Assembly (NCBI RefSeq): GCF_019739195.1
Contig: NZ_JAHHDS010000002.1
Span: forward strand, 62,001-126,000
Direction of reading: 5' to 3'
Length of the DNA stretch: 64,000 nucleotides
Origin: Microcella sp.
GTDB taxonomy: Bacteria > Actinomycetota > Actinomycetes > Actinomycetales > Microbacteriaceae
Part shown: positions 32,388 to 43,562 of the stretch, in pieces
Position numbering within the stretch: the stretch's first letter is position 1
Layout: each line of letters opens with the position of its first letter
Position numbers and translations under genes: made by a program
Notes under the pieces: model-generated
What the model saw: the letters and a program-made list of their open reading frames with translations, nothing else
The model's database searches: none
What the model was told of the DNA's origin: nothing

Positions 32388-34037
32388 TCAGACGGCGACG
32401 GGCACCGGGGCGACAGCCGAGGTGCCGGCGAGCCAGGTCGTGTAGCCGCCGTCGAGATTGGCCACGGTCACACCGTACTGCCGCAGCAGCGACGCGGCGG
32501 TGTGGCCGCGCTGGCCGACCTTGCACGTCACGATGACACGCTCGCCGCGCAGCCGCTCGGCGTGGTCGCGCAGCTCGTCGAGCGTGATGAGCTCGCTGCC
32601 CGGAATCGCGCCGAGCGCGTTCTCACCCTCGGTGCGCACGTCGATGAGCCGCCACCCGTCGGCCTGCTTCTCGGCGAGCTCGTGCCACTGCACGCTCAGC
32701 TCGCCGTCGATGAGGTTGTCGTCGACGTAGCCGAGCATGTTGACGGGGTCTTTCGCCGAGCCGAACTGCGGCGCGTAGGCGAGCTCGAGGTCGGCGAGCC
32801 CGCGCGCGGGAATGCCGCCGGCCATCGCTGTCGCGATGACGTCGATGCGCTTCTCCGCGCCACCGCCGATGGCCTGCGCGCCGAGGATGGCGTCGGTCTC
32901 GGCATCGACGATGAGCTTGAGCGAGAGCTGCTCGGCGCCCGGGTAGTACCCGGCGTGATGGGTCGGGTGGGTGTGGATGACGCGGATCGTGCGGCCCTCG
33001 TCGCGCAGCTCGCGCTCGGTGCGGCCGACTGCGGCGGCAGTGAGGCCGAACAGCCCAATGACAGCAGTGCCGAGGGCCGGGACGGCTGCGTGCGGGCGGC
33101 CGGCGATAACGTCGGCGGCGAGGCGACCGTGCCGGTTGGCCAGGCCCGCCAGCCACACGGGCGAGGGGTCTCCGTCGAAGCGCTGCTTCACGACGGCGTC
33201 ACCCACCGCGAAGATCGCCGGGTCGGAGGTGCGCTGCTCGGAGTCGACGACGATGTAGCCGCGGGGGTCGAGGTCGAGTCCCGCGTCGCGGGCGAGGCCG
33301 CTCTCGGGCCGCACCCCGACCGACAGCACGACGAGGTCTGCCGGCAGGGTCGATGCACCGCCGTCGAGCACGACGTGGTCGTCTTCGATGCCGCTGAGCG
33401 CCGTGCCGAGGTGCAGCTCGATTCCGTTCGCCCGCAGGCGCTGGGCGACAATGTGTGCCATCTCGACGTCGAAGGGCCGCAGCACCTGGGGCAGCATCTC
33501 GACGACGGACACCTCGAGACCGCGGTGGCGCAGGTTCTCGGCGAGTTCGAGGCCGATGAAGCCCGCACCGGCGACGACGACTCGGCGAGCATCCTGCGCC
33601 GCGGCGATGATGCGGTCCATGTCGGCGATGTCGCGCAGCACCAGGCCGCGCTCGACGCCGGGGATGGGGATGCGCATCGGCGAGGCGCCGGGGCTGAGTA
33701 CGAGAGCGTCGTACGCAAGCACATCGTCGGCGCCCGTCGCGAGGTCGCGCACAGTGACGGTGCGGGCCTCGCGGTCGATCGCGATCGCCTCGGTGCGCAC
33801 GCGCACGTCAAGGGCGAAGCGTGCGCCGAGCGACGCGGGGGTCTGCAGAATCAGCGCATCACGATCGGTGATGACGCCGCCCACGTGGTACGGCAGGCCG
33901 CAGTTGGCGAACGAGACGTGCTCGCCACGCTCGAGAACGATGATGCGAGCGGTCTCGTCGAGACGGCGCAGGCGGGTCGCGGTCGACATGCCGCCGGCCA
34001 CGCCGCCGATGATGACGTAGGTTCGAGGGGAGGTCAT
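32388..34037 (-). CDS. CoA-disulfide reductase fused to rhodanese
   Basis: FAD- and NAD(P)H-dependent enzyme of 549 residues. FAD motif VIIGGVAGGMS (8-18), the single redox Cys46 in SFANCGLPYHVGG, the NAD-binding AGAGFIGLELAEN and FAVGD segments, the dimerisation domain, then a C-terminal rhodanese domain (about 455-549) with Cys505 in VTCKVGQRGH. Such fusions reduce CoA or glutathione persulfide and polysulfide. First gene of the operon; the ATG lies 7 nt after a -10 element, so the mRNA may be leaderless. Confidence 0.94.
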   Translation of the reverse strand: MTSPRTYVIIGGVAGGMSTATRLRRLDETARIIVLERGEHVSFANCGLPYHVGGVITDRDALILQTPASLGARFALDVRVRTEAIAIDREARTVTVRDLATGADDVLAYDALVLSPGASPMRIPIPGVERGLVLRDIADMDRIIAAAQDARRVVVAGAGFIGLELAENLRHRGLEVSVVEMLPQVLRPFDVEMAHIVAQRLRANGIELHLGTALSGIEDDHVVLDGGASTLPADLVVLSVGVRPESGLARDAGLDLDPRGYIVVDSEQRTSDPAIFAVGDAVVKQRFDGDPSPVWLAGLANRHGRLAADVIAGRPHAAVPALGTAVIGLFGLTAAAVGRTERELRDEGRTIRVIHTHPTHHAGYYPGAEQLSLKLIVDAETDAILGAQAIGGGAEKRIDVIATAMAGGIPARGLADLELAYAPQFGSAKDPVNMLGYVDDNLIDGELSVQWHELAEKQADGWRLIDVRTEGENALGAIPGSELITLDELRDHAERLRGERVIVTCKVGQRGHTAASLLRQYGVTVANLDGGYTTWLAGTSAVAPVPVAV

Positions 34038-34043
34038 GCCCTC

Positions 34044-34072
34044 ACTATATACCCCCTGGGGTATTTTTGCAC
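34044..34072 (-). promoter_or_regulatory. Promoter with CsoR/CstR-type operator
   Basis: Perfect inverted repeat ATACCCC-CT-GGGGTAT at 34049-34064, the GC-tract type bound by CsoR-family repressors. On the minus strand TATAGT (34049-34044) is a -10 and GTGCAA, 17 nt upstream, a weak -35, so the operator fills the spacer. The start codon is 6 nt after the -10. Confidence 0.75.
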
Positions 34073-34162
34073 GCCGGTTCGCTGGGGGCGATGCGCGCCC
34101 AGCGAGAGCGTTCACAGCCGTCGCGCGAGAGTCGCCCAGTTCACTGTGCCAGAGTCTGTAGC

Positions 34163-35092
34163 ATGGCCCGGTCAGCACTGGCGACGCGCGCTCGAGGGCG
34201 CATCCTCACGATGTTCTCGGGCGACCCGAACGGCACTCCCGACTGGGTCACGGCCCTCGGGACCGGTGACGATGCGGGCTACTTCGGTCCGGGCTCGGCC
34301 GTCTGGGAGGTGCACAGCGGGCTGCCCACAGTCGTCGCCGGCATTCGCGCTCTGCTCATGCAAACGTTGCACCCGGGCGCCATGGCCGGCGTTCACGACC
34401 ACTCTCGATACCGCGAAGACCCACTCGGTCGACTGGCGGGCACCGTGCGCTGGGTGCTCACGACGACGTTCGCCGACCGTCGACAGGCCGAGGCCGCCTG
34501 CGCGTGGGTCTCGCAGCTGCACCACCGCGTGACCGGTGAGTACCTCGGTGCGGACGGAACGACGATCGCGTACTCGGCGGGCGACTCTGACCTCGTCGCC
34601 TGGGTGCACTGCGTGTTCGCCGATGCGTTCATCGGCAGTCACGAGACCTGGGGCGGCGACATTCCAGGGGGGTCAGATCAGTACGTGCGCGAGTGGGCTC
34701 TTGCCGGCGAATTGATGGGGATGCCCGCACCGCCCCGCAGCCGCGCCGAACTCGATGCGGCCATCGCCGCCTACCTGCCCGTGCTGCGACGCGACGAGCG
34801 CGTCGACGAGGCTGTGCGATGGTTGCGCAAACCCCCGCTCGGTGCCGGTGTGGGGCCCGCCTATCGCGTGCTCTTCGCCGGCGCGGTGGCATCGCTGCCA
34901 GACCGCTACCGCGAACTGCTCGGGCTGAAGCGCCCCCGCTGGCCCGCGATCGCGCTCACCGGCATCGCCCTCTCAGTGATGGGTCGTCTACTCGGCTCAG
35001 AGTCGTCGAGCCTCGCCTACACGCGCCGCCGGCTCGATCGGCTTGCCACCGAGCAAGCTGCCGCCCCGTCGCACGGGGATCAGAATGGCTGA
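34163..35092 (+). CDS. MpaB-like oxygenase family protein (DUF2236)
   Basis: 309 residues with the ER/MpaB-family motif LHPGAMAGVHDHSRYREDPLGRL at about 70-92, whose His residues would ligate haem, and RVTGEYLGADGTTIAYSAGDSD. Members of this family include latex-clearing and peptide-macrocyclising oxygenases; the substrate here is unknown. It is divergent from the CoA-disulfide reductase gene. The ATG at 34163 is preferred because residues encoded further upstream show no family similarity. Its 3' end overlaps the next gene by 13 nt. Confidence 0.85.
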   Translation: MARSALATRARGRILTMFSGDPNGTPDWVTALGTGDDAGYFGPGSAVWEVHSGLPTVVAGIRALLMQTLHPGAMAGVHDHSRYREDPLGRLAGTVRWVLTTTFADRRQAEAACAWVSQLHHRVTGEYLGADGTTIAYSAGDSDLVAWVHCVFADAFIGSHETWGGDIPGGSDQYVREWALAGELMGMPAPPRSRAELDAAIAAYLPVLRRDERVDEAVRWLRKPPLGAGVGPAYRVLFAGAVASLPDRYRELLGLKRPRWPAIALTGIALSVMGRLLGSESSSLAYTRRRLDRLATEQAAAPSHGDQNG

Positions 35093-36500: not shown

Positions 36501-37481
36501 TCACTCGCTCACGCGGTCGAGCTCGGTCAACTGATGACGCGAGAGCGGCGTGAACGGCGCCGCCATGATCGCCTCCAACTGCAGGGGGTCGCTGACCGAG
36601 ACGACGGGCGCGACGACGCGCGGCCGGCTCAGTAGCCACGACAGCGCGACGGTCGGCACCGAGCTCGAGGTCTCGTTAGCGAGGCGATCGAGAGCGGCGA
36701 GCACCCGCAGCCCCCGTCGGGTCAGATACTCGGCCACCTCGTCTCCGCGACGATAGCGGTCGAGGTCGGCGCGCGACCGGTACTTGCCGCTGAGAAAGCC
36801 CGCGGCGAGGGCAAACCGCGGCAGCACTCCGAGATCGAGTTGTGCGGCGATGCGGGCCAGTCCGTTCTCGTACTCGGAGCGGTGCATGAGGTTGTAGTGC
36901 TTCTGCACCGCCACCATGTGGGCCACCCCCAGCTGCCCCGATGCGATGCGCGCTTCGAAGAGGCGGTTGGCCGTGTGGTCGCTACCGCCGAAGTAACGCA
37001 CGTGGCCTGCGCGAATCAATTCGTCGACCGCGAGCAACGTCTCGTCGAACGACACAGACGGGTCGTCGACGTGCAAGAACAGCAGGTCGATGCGGTCGAT
37101 GCGCAGTCGGCGCAACGAGGCCTCGACCGCTGCCCGAATGGCAGGGGCCGAGAGGCCAGGGTGGTCAGGACCCTTGCCGACCTTGGTGGCGATCGTGAGA
37201 GCGTCGCGGTTGCCCCGCTCGCGCATCCAGTTGCCGATCATGATCTCGCTACGCCCGCCCGCGTAGGCATCTGCGGTGTCGATGAAGGTGCCCTGCAGCT
37301 CGACGAAGCGGTCGAGAATCGCCGTGGTCGTCGGCCCGTCGGCTGTCCAGCCGAACACGGTGCCGCTCAGAGCGATCGGGAAGACGTCGAGATCGCTCGG
37401 CCCGACGCGCCGCGTCACGGGAATCGGGCCGGTCTGCACCGCAGACGCGGCCGACTCTGCGTGGCCTTCGGGGTCGATCAC
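36501..37481 (-). CDS. Aldo/keto reductase
   Basis: NADPH-dependent (beta-alpha)8 oxidoreductase of 326 residues. The catalytic tetrad is visible: Asp and Tyr in FIDTADAYAGGRSE, Lys in TIATKVGKG, His in DLLFLHVDD. NADPH-binding LGVLPRFALAAGFLSGKY and the C-terminal helix ITELDRVSE-like end fit the AKR family 11-type. Substrate unknown. It is convergent with the TetR gene and lies downstream of the rhodopsin gene on the same strand, with a terminator between them. Confidence 0.93.
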   Translation of the reverse strand: MIDPEGHAESAASAVQTGPIPVTRRVGPSDLDVFPIALSGTVFGWTADGPTTTAILDRFVELQGTFIDTADAYAGGRSEIMIGNWMRERGNRDALTIATKVGKGPDHPGLSAPAIRAAVEASLRRLRIDRIDLLFLHVDDPSVSFDETLLAVDELIRAGHVRYFGGSDHTANRLFEARIASGQLGVAHMVAVQKHYNLMHRSEYENGLARIAAQLDLGVLPRFALAAGFLSGKYRSRADLDRYRRGDEVAEYLTRRGLRVLAALDRLANETSSSVPTVALSWLLSRPRVVAPVVSVSDPLQLEAIMAAPFTPLSRHQLTELDRVSE

Positions 37482-37617: not shown

Positions 37618-37665
37618 CGACAACGGCGTGGCCGTGCCCAGAGGCACGACCACGCCGAGGTGTCG
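37618..37665 (-). terminator. Hairpin terminator after the rhodopsin gene
   Basis: Arms 37625-37638 and 37643-37656 pair at 13 of 14 positions around a CAGA loop; flanking CGACA / TGTCG (37618-37622, 37661-37665) extend it. It starts 20 nt past the rhodopsin stop. Confidence 0.75.
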
Positions 37666-37685: not shown

Positions 37686-38435
37686 CTAGACGCCCTGAAC
37701 CTTCTTGATCTGAGCCGACTCGTCGACGCTGCTCTGCTTTGCAGCGCGCACCGCGATAAGGCCGAAGCCCACCTTGTTGAGCACGTCGGCGATGACGTAG
37801 ATGATCGCCGCCACGCCGATGGCGAGGGCCGCATCGCTGCCGCTGAGCTCGAGGAACTCTTGGGTCGCGGTGCCGATCGGGTAGATGGCCCAGCCGGCGA
37901 TGACAAACCACTTCATGATGCCCACCGCGCGCTTGACGTGCGCAGGCGCACCGTCGCCGATCTTCAGCGTGAAGACCACGTAGACGATGTAGAGCCACGC
38001 GAGCGACGACACGACGAAGAACACGATGTTGCCGATCGAGCCCGGCTCGCCGATCTCACCGAGGTAGCCGGTGACGATCATGATGATGTCGGCGATGATG
38101 AGCTTCGTCAGCAGGCCCTTTTTGAGCGCACCTGCGATTGCCACGATGAGCGCGAACTCCACCAGCAGCAGCGGCGTGGTCAGCAGCCAGTCGATGTACC
38201 GCAGAGGCAGAGTGGCGTCGACGTCGGCCGCCGTGATCTCGCCGCCCGGAAACTTGACGACGTCTTTCATGACGTAGTACATGATCGCGGCGATGAACGT
38301 GATGACCGCGGCGTAGGTCGCCACCGAGCGCAGCTCGGGCTTCAGGTCATTGCGCTCGAGATAGAACCACAGGGTGCCGGCCGCCATGGCGACGAAGCCG
38401 AGCATGAAAAACGCTTGGACGATGTGGAAGTCCAC
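37686..38435 (-). CDS. Light-driven proton pump rhodopsin (proteorhodopsin type)
   Basis: Seven-helix retinal protein of 249 residues. Helix C reads RYIDWLLTTPLLLVEF: Asp82 (proton acceptor), Thr86 and Glu93 (proton donor) give the DTE triad of outward proton pumps. Leu90 sits at the spectral-tuning position, predicting green absorption. Helix G has Asp217 and the retinal Lys221 (IADVLNKVGFG); helix F has WAIYPIG. By-eye alignment puts Met52 where proteorhodopsin has the His that pairs with the counterion. The GTG at 38435 is preferred: GAAGGAG lies 4 nt upstream, whereas an upstream in-frame ATG (38486) would add 17 unlikely residues. No carotenoid or retinal synthesis gene is in the window. 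Confidence 0.93.
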   Translation of the reverse strand: MDFHIVQAFFMLGFVAMAAGTLWFYLERNDLKPELRSVATYAAVITFIAAIMYYVMKDVVKFPGGEITAADVDATLPLRYIDWLLTTPLLLVEFALIVAIAGALKKGLLTKLIIADIIMIVTGYLGEIGEPGSIGNIVFFVVSSLAWLYIVYVVFTLKIGDGAPAHVKRAVGIMKWFVIAGWAIYPIGTATQEFLELSGSDAALAIGVAAIIYVIADVLNKVGFGLIAVRAAKQSSVDESAQIKKVQGV

Positions 38436-38656
38436 AATTCTCCTTCGAATCGTGCCAGCAGAGCGCACGACGCGCAGAGCCGACAAGGGGGGTGATGTCG
38501 ATGAACGAGTGTTCTTCGGCAGCCACAGGGATCGGGACCAGCGGTGTCGGATTAACCATGACTGTACGTCGGTGCGACCCCTCCCACCCGGAAATTCGCT
38601 GGAAGTGGCTGGAGACTCGCTGAGTGTTTCGTCAGCGGGTGACTTGCGCCTGGGTT

Positions 38657-38688
38657 GAACGCTCGTTTAGTATACTGAACATGCGTTC
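38657..38688. promoter_or_regulatory. 32-bp palindrome over the TetR-ABC operon promoter
   Basis: Core GTTTAGTATACTGAAC (38665-38680) is symmetric at 14 of 16 positions. Outer arms GAACGC (38657-38662) and GCGTTC (38683-38688) share the same centre. It covers the -10 (TAGTAT or TATACT) and the ATG at 38681; TTGCGC (38644-38649) is a possible -35 with an 18-nt spacer. The transcript would be leaderless. Confidence 0.75.
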
Positions 38689-39403
38689 ACCCTCTCCCGA
38701 TCTGACGACGCGTGCCCGCATTCGGGATGCTGCGCTCGGGCTCTTCGGGGCGAATGGGTACAGCGCGACCTCGGTGCGCGCCATCGCTGAGCACGCCGGG
38801 GTGAGCGCGGCCCTCGTCATGCACCACTTCGGCTCGAAAGAGGCCCTGCGCGCCGAGTGTGACGCCCACATCGTCGACGAGGTCATCGGGCGCAAAGAAC
38901 AGCTCGCGACCGACAGCGATCTGTCGTCGACGATGCGTCGCTGGCTCGCTGACGTCGATGCTCATCGGGCGAGCCTCGACTACCTCGCGCGCATGATCTC
39001 CGACGGCACCGAGGCCGGCGCCCGACTGTTCGACGACCTCGTCGACCGCACGGCGGCGATGATCGATGCCGAGGTTGCGGCGGGCCGCATGCGCACGTCG
39101 AGCGACCCGCGCATGACCGCGGTTATCGTGGCTGCACACGGGCTGGTGCCTCTACTGCTCGAGAGCCAGCTGGGTCGAGCGCTCGGCGAGCCGGGTCTGA
39201 CGCCAGCGCTCATCGCCCGCATGACGCTGCCGACACTCGAGCTCTACACCCACGGCCTCTACCAGTCGACCGATGTGCTCGACGCGGCCACCGCCGCGCT
39301 CGCGGGTACCCCTGACACGACGCGCGGCCCCCGATCTGACAAGGGCGCTGGCGATCCGAATCAAGATCCTGATCCGCCTCGACGCGCGGGAACCGATCTC
39401 TGA
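38681..39403 (+). CDS. TetR-family regulator of the ABC exporter
   Basis: 240-residue repressor; HTH at about 12-58 (IRDAALGLFGANGYSATSVRAIAEHAGVS is typical, with ALVMHHFGSKEALR following). It heads an operon with an ATPase and a permease gene. The ATG lies inside the palindrome that should be its operator, so it probably represses its own operon and is released by the exporter's substrate. The last 30 residues are a low-complexity tail rich in Asp, Pro and Arg. Confidence 0.9.
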   Translation: MRSPSPDLTTRARIRDAALGLFGANGYSATSVRAIAEHAGVSAALVMHHFGSKEALRAECDAHIVDEVIGRKEQLATDSDLSSTMRRWLADVDAHRASLDYLARMISDGTEAGARLFDDLVDRTAAMIDAEVAAGRMRTSSDPRMTAVIVAAHGLVPLLLESQLGRALGEPGLTPALIARMTLPTLELYTHGLYQSTDVLDAATAALAGTPDTTRGPRSDKGAGDPNQDPDPPRRAGTDL

Positions 39404-39445
39404 CCCGTGCCGACCGGCACGACACTTCGACGAAAGGAACCGGGG

Positions 39446-40375
39446 ATGACCCCCGTCATTGAGACACGTGCGCTGACGAAGCGCTATGGACGCCGCACGG
39501 CGCTGCACGGCATCGATCTCACGATCGAGCCTGGCCGCGTCTTCGGCGTCATCGGCCCCAACGGGGCCGGCAAGACCACGACCATGCGGGTACTGCTTGA
39601 CATCATCCGTGCGACGAGCGGTGACGTTCGAGTGCTGGGCCACGACCCACGCACGGGCGGGCCGGCCCTGCGGCGACGTATCGGCTACTTGCCGGGCGAA
39701 CTGTCGCTCGCCGGTCGAGCAACAGCGCGCAGCCTGCTGAACCACTACGCCGAACTCAACGGCGGCATCGAGCACGGTCGCATCGATGAGCTGGCCGACC
39801 GGCTCGGACTCGAGCTCGGGCGCCCGGTGCGTTCGCTGAGCAAGGGCAACAAGCAGAAGGTCGGCCTCGTGCAAGCCTTCGCGCACCGCCCCGACCTGCT
39901 GGTGCTCGACGAACCGACGAGCGGTCTCGACCCGCTCGTGCAGCAGGAGTTCTTGACGATGGTGCGCGAAGCGCGCGAAGCGGGCCAGACGGTCTTCCTC
40001 AGTTCGCACGTCATCAGCGAGATCCAGCAGGCCGCCGACGATGTCGCGGTGCTGAGGTCGGGTCGCATCGTCGACGTCAGCACTGTCGAGCGCTTGCGCG
40101 CGGCAGCGCGGCGATCGGTGCGCATCACGGTGCGCGCCGCCGACCGCGAGGCCCTGCTCGGCAGGCTCAGCTCGGTTGCTCGGCTCGATGACGTCACGGT
40201 GACCGAGGTCGACGGCACGGCCGTCGTGCACGGCATGCTCGGCGACGGCGTTGCACCCTTCGTCTCGGCAGTCGCCGCGAGCGATCTGCTCGATCTGGTC
40301 GTGCAAGAGCCCGACCTCGAGAGCGCCGTGCTCGGCTTCTACGGGCCGGGCGCCGAGCAGGAGGAGCAGTCATGA
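39446..40375 (+). CDS. ABC transporter ATP-binding protein
   Basis: ATPase of 309 residues. Walker A GPNGAGKTTTM (about 37-47), signature LSKGNKQKVGL (unusual K-G-N-K form also seen in multidrug exporters of this class), Walker B LLVLDEPTSGLD, H-loop SSHVISEI. A C-terminal extension of about 80 residues follows. It starts with ATG after AAAGGAACC and overlaps the permease gene by 4 nt. Likely part of an ABC-2-type exporter regulated by the TetR gene upstream. Confidence 0.94.
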   Translation: MTPVIETRALTKRYGRRTALHGIDLTIEPGRVFGVIGPNGAGKTTTMRVLLDIIRATSGDVRVLGHDPRTGGPALRRRIGYLPGELSLAGRATARSLLNHYAELNGGIEHGRIDELADRLGLELGRPVRSLSKGNKQKVGLVQAFAHRPDLLVLDEPTSGLDPLVQQEFLTMVREAREAGQTVFLSSHVISEIQQAADDVAVLRSGRIVDVSTVERLRAAARRSVRITVRAADREALLGRLSSVARLDDVTVTEVDGTAVVHGMLGDGVAPFVSAVAASDLLDLVVQEPDLESAVLGFYGPGAEQEEQS

Positions 40376-41205
40376 GTGCCACGATGCAGAGTTCGCGCGC
40401 CGCTGTGCGCGCCCGTCCGCTTCCGCTACTGCGGCGGCAGCTCGCTGAGACCTGGCGAGGCCTCATCGGCTGGAGCCTGGGTCTTGCCGGCGTCGTCGGC
40501 ATGTACCTGCCGCTCTACTCGACGATCGGCGGCAACCCGGAGTTTCTCGCCATCATCGAGAGCCTGCCGCCCGAGCTCGTGGCGGCACTGAGCTACGACC
40601 AGATCACGACCGGTGCCGGTTACACGCAAGGCACCGTGCACGGCCTCATCGGCTTCGTGCTCGTGACGATCGCGGCCGTGGCGTGGGGCTCGTCGATCAT
40701 CGCCGGCGACGAAGAACGCGGCACCCTCGAGCTCGTGCTCGCACACGGCGTCGGGCGCACGCAGGTCGTTCTCGAGCGGTTCGCGGCGATCGCGCTCAAG
40801 CTCACCGCGCTGGCGGTGCTGCTGGGCCTCATGGTGCTCGGACTCAATGAGCCGGCCGCGCTCGAGCTCTCGCTCGAGGGCATCGTCGCCGGCTCGGTGG
40901 CGTTGCTCGGCCTGGGTTTGCTGACCGCTGCCGTGGGCACGATGACGGGAGCCATCATTGGTCGCCGAACCATTGCGGTCGGCGCCGCTTCCGGTGTCGC
41001 CGTGCTCGGCTACGCACTGAACGCGCTCGGCAACCAAAACCCCGACCTCGAGTGGATGCACGTGCTCTCGCCCTACTTCTGGGCGTACGGCGCTGCACCA
41101 CTGGCCGACGGGTTCGACCCACTCATGGGGCTGCTTTACGCGGTGTCGGCGGCGGCGTTGACCGTCGCGGTCATCGCGTTCCGGCGCCGAGACGTGGCGG
41201 TCTAG
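40372..41205 (+). CDS. ABC-2-type exporter permease
   Basis: 277 residues with about six membrane spans, including GWSLGLAGVVGMYLPLY and several near 95-115, 140-160, 170-200, 205-225 and 250-270. The EERGTLELVLAHGV motif is characteristic of ABC-2 type permeases related to antibiotic exporters. It overlaps the ATPase gene by 4 nt. Substrate unknown. Confidence 0.9.
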   Translation: MSATMQSSRAAVRARPLPLLRRQLAETWRGLIGWSLGLAGVVGMYLPLYSTIGGNPEFLAIIESLPPELVAALSYDQITTGAGYTQGTVHGLIGFVLVTIAAVAWGSSIIAGDEERGTLELVLAHGVGRTQVVLERFAAIALKLTALAVLLGLMVLGLNEPAALELSLEGIVAGSVALLGLGLLTAAVGTMTGAIIGRRTIAVGAASGVAVLGYALNALGNQNPDLEWMHVLSPYFWAYGAAPLADGFDPLMGLLYAVSAAALTVAVIAFRRRDVAV

Positions 41206-41294: not shown

Positions 41295-43562
41295 TTAGCC
41301 GTCTTCGCCCTCGGCGGGGGCGTCGCCGCCTTCGCCCTCAGCCAGCACCGGTGCGAGCGAGAGCTTGCCGCGGTCGTCGGTCTTCGTGATCTCGACGAGG
41401 ATCTTCTGGCCCACGGCGAGCACGTCTTCGACGTTCTCGACGCGCTTGCCGCCGGCGAGCTTGCGCACCTCGCTGATGTGCAGCAGACCGTCTTTACCCG
41501 GCATGAGCGAGACGAACGCACCGAAGGCGGCGATCTTGACGACCGTTCCCAGGTACTGCTCGCCCACCTCGGGGTTGATGGGGTTGGCGATCGCGTTGAC
41601 CTGCAGGCGAGCCGCCTCGGCCGAAGCGCCGTCGACCGCGCCGATGTAGACGGTGCCGTCTTCCTCGATCGAGATCTGCGCGCCGGTCTCGTCTTGGATC
41701 GAGTTGATCGTCTTGCCCTTCGGGCCGATCAGCTCGCCGATCTTGTCGACCGGAATCTGCACGCTGATGACGCGAGGCGCGGTGGGCGCCATCTCGTCAG
41801 GCGCGTCGATCGCCTGGTTCATGACGGCGAGGATCGCCATGCGGGCGTCTTTCGCCTGACCCAGCGCCTGCTGCAGCACCGACGACGGAATGCCGTCGAG
41901 CTTGGTGTCGAGCTGAATCGCAGTGACGAAATCGCTCGTGCCGGCGACCTTGAAGTCCATGTCGCCGAGGGCATCTTCGGCACCGAGAATGTCGGTGAGG
42001 GCCGCGTAGCGGGTCTCACCATCCACAACATCGCTGATGAGGCCCATCGCGATACCCGCAACCGGCGCGCGCAGCGGCACACCGGCGTTGAGCAGCGAGA
42101 GCGTCGAGGCGCACACCGAGCCCATCGAGGTCGAGCCGTTCGAGCTCATGGCCTCGCTGACCTGACGGATCGCGTAGGGGAACTCTTCGCGGCTCGGCAG
42201 CACCGGCACGAGAGCGCGCTCGGCCAGGAAGCCGTGCCCGATCTCGCGACGCTTGGGGCTGCCGACTCGGCCGGTCTCACCGGTCGAGTAGGGCGGGAAG
42301 TTGTAGTGGTGCATGTAGCGCTTGCTCGTCACCGGGTTCAGCGAGTCGATCTGCTGCTCGAGCTTGAGCATGTTGAGCGTCGTGACGCCGAGAATCTGCG
42401 TCTCGCCGCGCTGGAAGATCGCCGAGCCGTGCACGCGAGGAATGACCTGCACCTCAGCGTCGAGCGCACGGATGTCGGCGAGGCCGCGACCGTCGATGCG
42501 CACGCCTTCGGTGAGCACGCGCGCACGCATGATTTTCTTCGAGACCGACTTGTAGGCGGCGCCGAAGTCTTTCAGCGACTCCTCGGGCAGCGAGCCGTCG
42601 GCGACCTTCGCCTCGATAGCCTGCTTGGTGCGGGCCTTGAGCGCGTCGTCAGCCGTCTGCCGCTCGACCTTGTCGGCGATCTGGTAGACCGACGCGAGCT
42701 CGGCCTGGGCAGCCTCTTCGACGGCGCTGTAGAGCTCCGGGCTGTACGACAGAAAGACCGGGTAGTCCTGAATCTCCTTGGCCGACTGCGCAGCGAGCTC
42801 GGCCTGAGCCTTCGCGAGCTGCATGATGAACGGCTTTGAGGCTTCGAGGCCCTGGGCCACGATCTCTTCGCTCGGCTTGACGGCGCCGCCCTGAATCAGG
42901 TTCCAGCTGCCCTCGGTGGCCTCAGCCTCGACCATGGTGATCGCGACGTCTTCAGAGCCGTCGGCGTTGGTGACGACGCGGCCCGCGACGATGATGTCGA
43001 AGACGGCCTCAGCCAGCTGGCTGTGCTTCGGGAAGGCGATCCACTGGCCGCCGCCGTTGTTGTCGGGCATGAGTGCCAGTCGCACCGAGGCGATCGGGCC
43101 GCTGAACGGCAGGCCCGAGATCTGCGTCGAGGCGCTCGCCGCGTTGATCGCGAGGGCGTCGTAGAACTCGTCGGGCGCGATGCTCAGCACCGTGATGACG
43201 ATCTGCACCTCGTTGCGCAGGCCTTCGATGAAGGTCGGGCGCAGCGGGCGGTCGATGAGTCGGCAGACGAGGATCGCCTCGGTCGACGGGCGGCCCTCAC
43301 GGCGGAAGAACGAACCGGGAATCTTGCCGGCGGCGTACGAGCGCTCTTCGACATCGACCGTCAGCGGGAAGAAGTCGAACCCTTCACGGGGGTGCTTGCC
43401 AGCGCTCGTCGCGCTCAGAATCATGGTCTCGTCGTCGAGGTAGGCGGCGACGGCGCCTTGGGCCTGCTGCGCGAGGCGGCCCGTTTCGAATCGAACAGTG
43501 CGCTTGCCGTACGTGCCGTTGTCGAGCACGGTTTCGGCGAACTTGATTTCAGGACCTTCCAC
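41295..43562 (-). CDS. pnp: Polyribonucleotide nucleotidyltransferase
   Basis: PNPase of 755 residues, a phosphorolytic 3'-5' exoribonuclease. Two RNase PH domains are visible (first with [29 protein letters not shown], second with [17 protein letters not shown] and the catalytic [27 protein letters not shown]), then a KH domain ([17 protein letters not shown]) and an S1 domain near the C-terminus ([15 protein letters not shown]). GTG start with GGAG upstream. rpsO, its usual neighbour, is 7.2 kb away. Confidence 0.97.

Follow-up and report, generated by a model that had tools for sequence, protein, structure and literature searches.

The window analysed here, a stretch of 64,000 nucleotides from a Microcella genome, carries a rhodopsin gene that is real and constrained, belongs to a known family and occurs in most genomes of its genus. 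Judged by its DTE motif, its family and its relatives, the product is best read as a light-driven proton pump. Taken as a whole, we propose an outward proton pump of the Exiguobacterium sibiricum rhodopsin (ESR) family that binds retinal and absorbs green light, and which would be encoded by a single-gene unit at one slot of the Microcella genomes and would draw its retinal from the strain's own crtE-crtB-crtI and crtY-blh genes; we give this explanation, the strain's own retinal supply included, a probability of roughly 80%. The most unusual feature of the rhodopsin, on which the original prediction was silent, is the absence of the counterion histidine. As far as the open literature was searched, mainly through titles and abstracts, the loss of this histidine across the clade has not been described, and PMC9601134 makes no mention of ESR, Exiguobacterium or Microbacteriaceae. 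The presence of such a rhodopsin in Pontimonas and in Yonghaparkia, which resolves to Microcella in the NCBI taxonomy, is already in print (PMC6106888). The available text of that study places the Pontimonas protein in an Exiguobacterium subcluster and mentions, as data not shown, that Yonghaparkia and acMicro-4 have orthologues in syntenic positions; its own Microcella isolate had a different rhodopsin.

The features of the locus are collected in Table 1. The rhodopsin frame is intact and gives its full-length product when read from the GTG codon, from which all residue numbers are counted. It matches Bac_rhodopsin (PF01036, E 5.3e-44), and a search of NCBIfam assigned no family. The closest solved relative by sequence is ESR (4hyj, 191 bits); an AF2 model built from an 18-row alignment (mean pLDDT 88.8) has helices compatible with seven membrane spans, and its two top fold matches in the PDB are both 4hyj chains (best E 4.7e-13). 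With this Pfam match, a seven-helix fold and the retinal lysine in the last helix, the protein is a type-1 microbial rhodopsin, as the original prediction of a seven-helix rhodopsin had it. The four residues named in that prediction (D82, T86, E93 and K221) all stand at functional columns of the alignment, together with M52, Y53, R79, L90, A210 and D217. By column, D82 is the proton acceptor, E93 the donor and K221 the retinal lysine, M52 replaces the counterion histidine and A210 replaces a release-side glutamate, and L90 stands at what we take to be the green-tuning position. The proposed GTG start and length of 249 residues also proved correct, with a conserved start and ribosome-binding site and with in-frame stops upstream in relatives. 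Among 21 chosen loci whose upstream regions were aligned (L027 being among those left out), 14 read exactly GAAGGAGAATTGTG, conservation drops just 5' of the ribosome-binding site, and ATG stands at the aligned start in five (L032, L033, L034, L041 and L043). A second listing, of 35 loci, has ATG there in L032, L033, L034, L009 and L010, where L009 and L041 are one contig and L010 and L040 another; an in-frame stop lies only eight codons upstream in L005, L006, L026, L027, L009 and L010. A longer protein from position 38486, where an ATG had been supposed, was rejected on the upstream conservation and the stops in relatives, and the codon at that position is TTG.

Table 1. Features of the rhodopsin locus, in window coordinates
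Feature	Position	Strand	Basis
Aldo/keto reductase, conserved neighbour	36501..37481	-	Window protein search; synteny
Probable terminator: 15-pair hairpin directly 3' of the stop codon, lacking a T-run	37624..37657	-	Folding; alignment of relatives
ESR-type rhodopsin, 249 aa, GTG start	37686..38435	-	ORF; Pfam match; tree; residue columns
Ribosome-binding site GAAGGAG, 5' of the GTG	38440..38446	-	Read from sequence; conserved in relatives
TetR-type regulator, divergent from the rhodopsin, variable cassette	38624..39403	+	Window protein search; synteny
ABC exporter ATPase, variable TetR-ABC-permease cassette	39407..40375	+	Window protein search; synteny
ABC-2 permease, variable TetR-ABC-permease cassette	40372..41205	+	Window protein search; synteny
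Conserved flanking gene used for synteny	41295..43562	-	Sequence reading; synteny

A rhodopsin phylogeny, which the original prediction had suggested as a check, places the protein in the ESR family as a member of an actinobacterial sister clade. The tree holds 67 proteins, a duplicate row having been removed from the initial 68. In it, 42 Microbacteriaceae sequences group together (support 100/99), Exiguobacterium and Jeotgalibacillus form a second (100/98), and the two are joined at 99/94, with two proteorhodopsins next to the joint clade and the actinorhodopsin- and xanthorhodopsin-like rows apart. The tree program issued a long-branch warning for the node uniting the actinobacterial and Bacillota halves; we consider it supported nonetheless, because identity between the halves is 46-51%, against at most 36% to other Microbacteriaceae rhodopsins in the set. 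The protein thus clusters with the Exiguobacterium rhodopsins and not with proteorhodopsins, actinorhodopsins or xanthorhodopsins, and its position in the tree led us to reject the last two identities. Matches of at least 50% identity occur in 35 of 398 Microbacteriaceae genomes, in seven genera and with one broken copy among them. Across the order, a search of 396 genomes gave no match as good as E 1e-30 outside the window's own genome; as the 21 rows shown are all Microbacteriaceae, it has little bearing on other families. For a viral carrier, two peptide patterns found no relative in the viral_contigs set. A mirror proteorhodopsin was likewise rejected, the window protein having DTE where the accessible part of PMC10154332 gives DTG or DTS motifs.

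The window protein and ESR share a common core of R79, D82, T86, L90, D217 and K221, and differ at three positions that separate the two halves of the family. Position 52 is histidine in ESR and all five Bacillota rows, and never histidine in the 42 actinobacterial rows, which have methionine (29), leucine (11) or phenylalanine (2). At position 93 the Bacillota lysine is replaced by glutamate in 40 actinobacterial rows and by serine in two, and at position 210 the Bacillota glutamate is replaced by alanine in all 42. These counts were made after removal of L002-L010, nine of 51 actinobacterial rows whose contigs were already present as whole-genome loci; the broken rhodopsin of G003 is not among the 42 rows, and the position-52 counts leave out G192, G037, G228 and G309, which are family-level matches of 52-57% identity without a locus. 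Across the same rows R79, D82, T86, D217 and K221 are kept without exception, and histidine exceeds 21 of 42 rows in no column, being most frequent in columns 35 and 166. Position 140, presumably the carotenoid window of helix E, is phenylalanine in 41 rows and methionine in one; a carotenoid antenna was rejected for the window protein, which has F140 and not glycine. The actinorhodopsin- and xanthorhodopsin-like proteins of the Microbacteriaceae share the DTE motif, as does Gloeobacter rhodopsin, but they stand apart in the tree, have histidine at position 52 in 12 of 12 cases (and in six of six PDB references, with 3ddl, 6nwd and 7ytb among the structures of this type), glycine at column 140 in 11 of 12, and Glu, Gln or Asn at position 210 in these 12 and the six references. 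Green and other proteorhodopsins resemble the window protein in the DTE motif and in the leucine at the position that we assume to tune green absorption, and differ in their identity of at most 34% (fold-search rows) and in the histidine of 4jq6 and 9jov. Halobacterium bacteriorhodopsin has a lone aspartate acceptor like that of the window protein, at 27-29% identity in the fold-search rows; the comparison of its release pair covered columns 193, 196, 209 and 210. A third, remote group of Microbacteriaceae DTE rhodopsins (L071, L072 and L073), whose branch measures 3.41 changes per column, has serine at position 52 in all three members, so that absence of this histidine is not confined to the ESR-type clade; the three share a C-terminal stretch, HPES.WISS. 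In the available text of PMC12002130 the His-Asp acceptor pair is stated to be fully conserved in cluster B, the proteorhodopsin-type pumps; the window protein has the other residues given for this cluster (Y53, R79, T86, E93 and D217), while histidine 52 is absent from the whole clade. Its E93 also departs from the lysine expected as cytoplasmic proton donor in the ESR family, and the clade may be regarded, by analogy, as a natural counterpart of the H57M and K96E mutants of ESR. By comparison, the rhodopsin type given for Actinomycetota in PMC12422013, as available, is actinorhodopsin.

In the mechanism that we propose, light would isomerise the retinal on K221 and the Schiff-base proton would pass to D82, a lone aspartate next to M52 in place of an Asp-His pair. 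On the cytoplasmic side, E93 would hand a proton back to the Schiff base, and the proton would leave past R79 and Y53 without the exit-side glutamate of ESR and the actinorhodopsins, alanine 210 standing at that position. Because the clade members examined lack a histidine reported as constant in bacterial pumps of this kind, this one may run closer to archaeal bacteriorhodopsin, and transport in this direction would presumably benefit growth. The pump reading is favoured by the invariant R79, D82, T86, D217 and K221 together with Glu93 in nearly all of the clade, by the fact that the nearest solved relative, in both sequence and fold, is the ESR pump, and by purifying selection on a gene whose genome holds a retinal pathway. 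Work on the His57 mutant of ESR (Balashov 2012) is summarised in a review (PMC10743670), according to which replacement by methionine moves the pKa of the aspartate from below 2 to 6.3 and the mutant's absorption lies at 565 nm for pH 5 and at 517 nm for pH 8.5. In proteorhodopsins, according to the part of a 2025 study available to us (PMC12002130), the histidine raises the aspartate pKa to about 7, and its replacement by methionine restores function at low pH and recreates the Schiff-base region of bacteriorhodopsin. By analogy, the two sets of mutant data predict opposite shifts for the working pH range of the window protein. The ESR K96E mutant, which has glutamate as the window protein does, is reported to keep pumping in E. 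coli cells with an M decay about ten times slower (PMC8387761), and this too favours a pump. So does the rhodopsin of Pontimonas salivibrio (WP_104913209.1, presumably our L043), a member of the same actinobacterial clade with Met52 and Glu93 and 68% identity to the window protein over the matched part. Expressed with retinal in E. coli it absorbs at 538 nm (PMC7979833, Table 1), and from this relative retinal binding is predicted for the window protein; the transport assays in the available text of that paper cover four proteins, with the Pontimonas rhodopsin not among them.

Two points that count against this explanation would suit a different role, that of a light sensor or slow photoswitch which gives the cell no energy and in which the histidine and the exit glutamate were lost as the demand for fast proton turnover relaxed. 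PMC6106888, as far as available, refers to the Exiguobacterium protein as characterised as a poor pump and a sensor, and two Microcella species (L026 of G020 and L027 of G019) have lost the donor carboxylate, with Ser93 and hence a DTS motif, in a gene that is still constrained (dN/dS 0.088 between the two). A sensor, however, would have no need of the glutamate donor that 40 of the 42 rows retain, and among eight window proteins searched around the rhodopsin there is no transducer. Of the neighbours, the reductase persists where the rhodopsin is gone (G016 and G017), and the TetR-ABC cassette comes and goes. The authors of PMC6106888 themselves preferred photoheterotrophy for Pontimonas, no transduction system being found according to the portion available. 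We regard a sensor as unlikely, though as the likeliest of the alternatives.

The energy-giving pump would require retinal, and the original prediction stated that no retinal-synthesis gene is present, which is true of the window and wrong for the genome (G000; 2.88 Mb in four contigs, the window lying on C2). The genome-wide search for a lycopene cyclase and a Blh oxygenase that had been suggested found both, adjoining on contig C3, where crtY (PF05834) directly precedes the genome's single blh match (PF15461, 148 bits) at about C3:1475.4-1477.7 kb. A phytoene synthase gene, crtB, lies elsewhere on C3 between frames that we name crtE and crtI from reading their sequences. Among 26 Microcella genomes, 15 have a blh match, which is incomplete in G003 and, at a contig end, in G013. 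An intact rhodopsin is present in 17 of the 19 near-complete genomes; 11 of these 17 also have full-length blh and crtY, and the remaining six (G002, G009, G010, G019, G020 and G022) have neither blh nor a full-length crtY. An RPE65-type enzyme was found in none of nine genomes searched (these six, G000, G016 and G003), and retinal synthesis by that route was rejected. Because the six genomes are without blh, full-length crtY and an RPE65-type enzyme, a retinal supply of its own is, judged by gene content, not universal in Microcella. These six count against the overall explanation, as does G024 (82% complete), with both blh and crtY but without a rhodopsin match. Both observations favour a pump that would run mainly on retinal or carotenoid taken up from neighbours, crtY-blh serving another purpose, and most genomes of the related Luna-1 group are reported to be without blh (PMC12422013, as available). 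The complete gene set in the window's own genome and the absence of full-length blh from both near-complete genomes without an intact rhodopsin (G003 and G016) speak against such uptake, which we consider quite improbable. The two genes have decayed together in G003, a near-complete genome on a single contig. Its rhodopsin (L085 8020-8640) has lost an internal stretch with a change of frame; of its blh (L089 2718-3494) the last 40% of the profile is left, in a short frame. The upstream portion of this frame looks, by eye, like part of a cyclase, and a search of the genome gave no full-length crtY. This joint decay fits a joint function, in one case, and favours the proposed pump.

The original prediction had named a TetR regulator, an ABC ATPase, a permease and an aldo/keto reductase as neighbours, which protein searches bear out, and had placed the rhodopsin in an accessory segment, which the comparison of genomes contradicts. 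A rhodopsin match is present in 21 of 26 Microcella genomes, broken in G003. In all 12 Microcella loci drawn from whole genomes (L077-L087 and L090) it occupies the same slot, with one copy broken (L085), and the order is the same throughout: the flanking gene at 41295-43562, presumably polyribonucleotide nucleotidyltransferase, then rhodopsin, aldo/keto reductase, TetR, phosphatase, MpaB-like protein and the gene at 32388-34178. The presumed Pontimonas genome (G055, L088) keeps part of this order, its rhodopsin standing between two of the same neighbours, the flanking gene and the phosphatase gene. The variable part is the TetR-ABC-permease cassette (38624-41205), complete in five of the 12 loci, reduced to ABC and permease in L083 and to a fragment in L087, and without a match in five. 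In G016 the flanking gene and the reductase are present, and in G017 the reductase and TetR, with no rhodopsin match between them or elsewhere. Because the order is conserved in Microcella and the gene is missing at its slot in these two genomes, the locus looks ancestral, and sometimes lost, rather than accessory.

The rhodopsin is under purifying selection. By the Nei-Gojobori method, dN/dS lies at 0.03-0.16 for 11 of 13 chosen pairs; the other two, each matching a Ser93 species with one outside that lineage, give 0.22 and 0.29. Between the window rhodopsin and its four closest tested relatives it is 0.08-0.11. A non-functional relic or mis-called frame, for which one could cite the decay that does occur in the genus (the deletion with frame change in G003, the empty slots of G016 and G017), is already contradicted by this test, as well as by the intact frame, the functional residues and the conserved start, and has a negligible chance of being right.

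The single-gene unit was predicted to end in its own terminator, and this stands in part. Just 3' of the stop codon the sequence can fold into a strong hairpin (z -5.18 when 101 bases are folded), which is found at one place in the window; it has no T-run, and a scan for the terminator consensus does not list it. Strong hairpins lie 3' of the stop in all 20 loci folded, the window's own included, the best 44-base windows reaching -28 to -41 kcal/mol in a comparison without shuffle control, and a run of about four or more T follows only in L034, L035 and L041. An alignment was made of 11 of the 20 loci, leaving out L029 and L032 as near-copies and L018, L021, L025, L034, L035, L041 and L043 as having hairpins that differ in sequence, so that covariation concerns the similar ones only. 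In these 11, 98.8% of the cells pair, four of the 15 pairs show changes on both sides, and no shuffle out of 500 attains the covariation score; further pair types number 8, which is not above the shuffled mean of 8.2. The hairpin likely acts as a transcription terminator.

The pH range of bacterial pumps is attributed to the His-Asp pair, and a clade whose evolution dispensed with the histidine would reveal which other changes a working pump needs. The natural proteins on offer have methionine, leucine or phenylalanine at site 52 and glutamate or serine as donor. We give slightly better than even odds to a broader proposal: that the whole actinobacterial DTE-pump clade gave up the His-Asp pair and the exit-side glutamate and works with a lone, bacteriorhodopsin-like aspartate, a natural His-to-Met version, and that in the lineage of G019 and G020 the donor carboxylate is gone as well and crtY and blh are not recognisable, while the protein stays under selection, which points to a changed role. 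A genome search found no blh match and no full-length crtY in either of these two genomes, and a Ser93 lineage without them that is nevertheless under selection is a lead only, being limited to two species. As a separate observation, two small genomes of one genus, G270 (L054 and L074) and G391 (L055 and L075), each carry an ESR-type rhodopsin with Phe52 together with an actinorhodopsin-like one, similar to the two-rhodopsin case described for Rhodoluna in the available part of PMC12422013.
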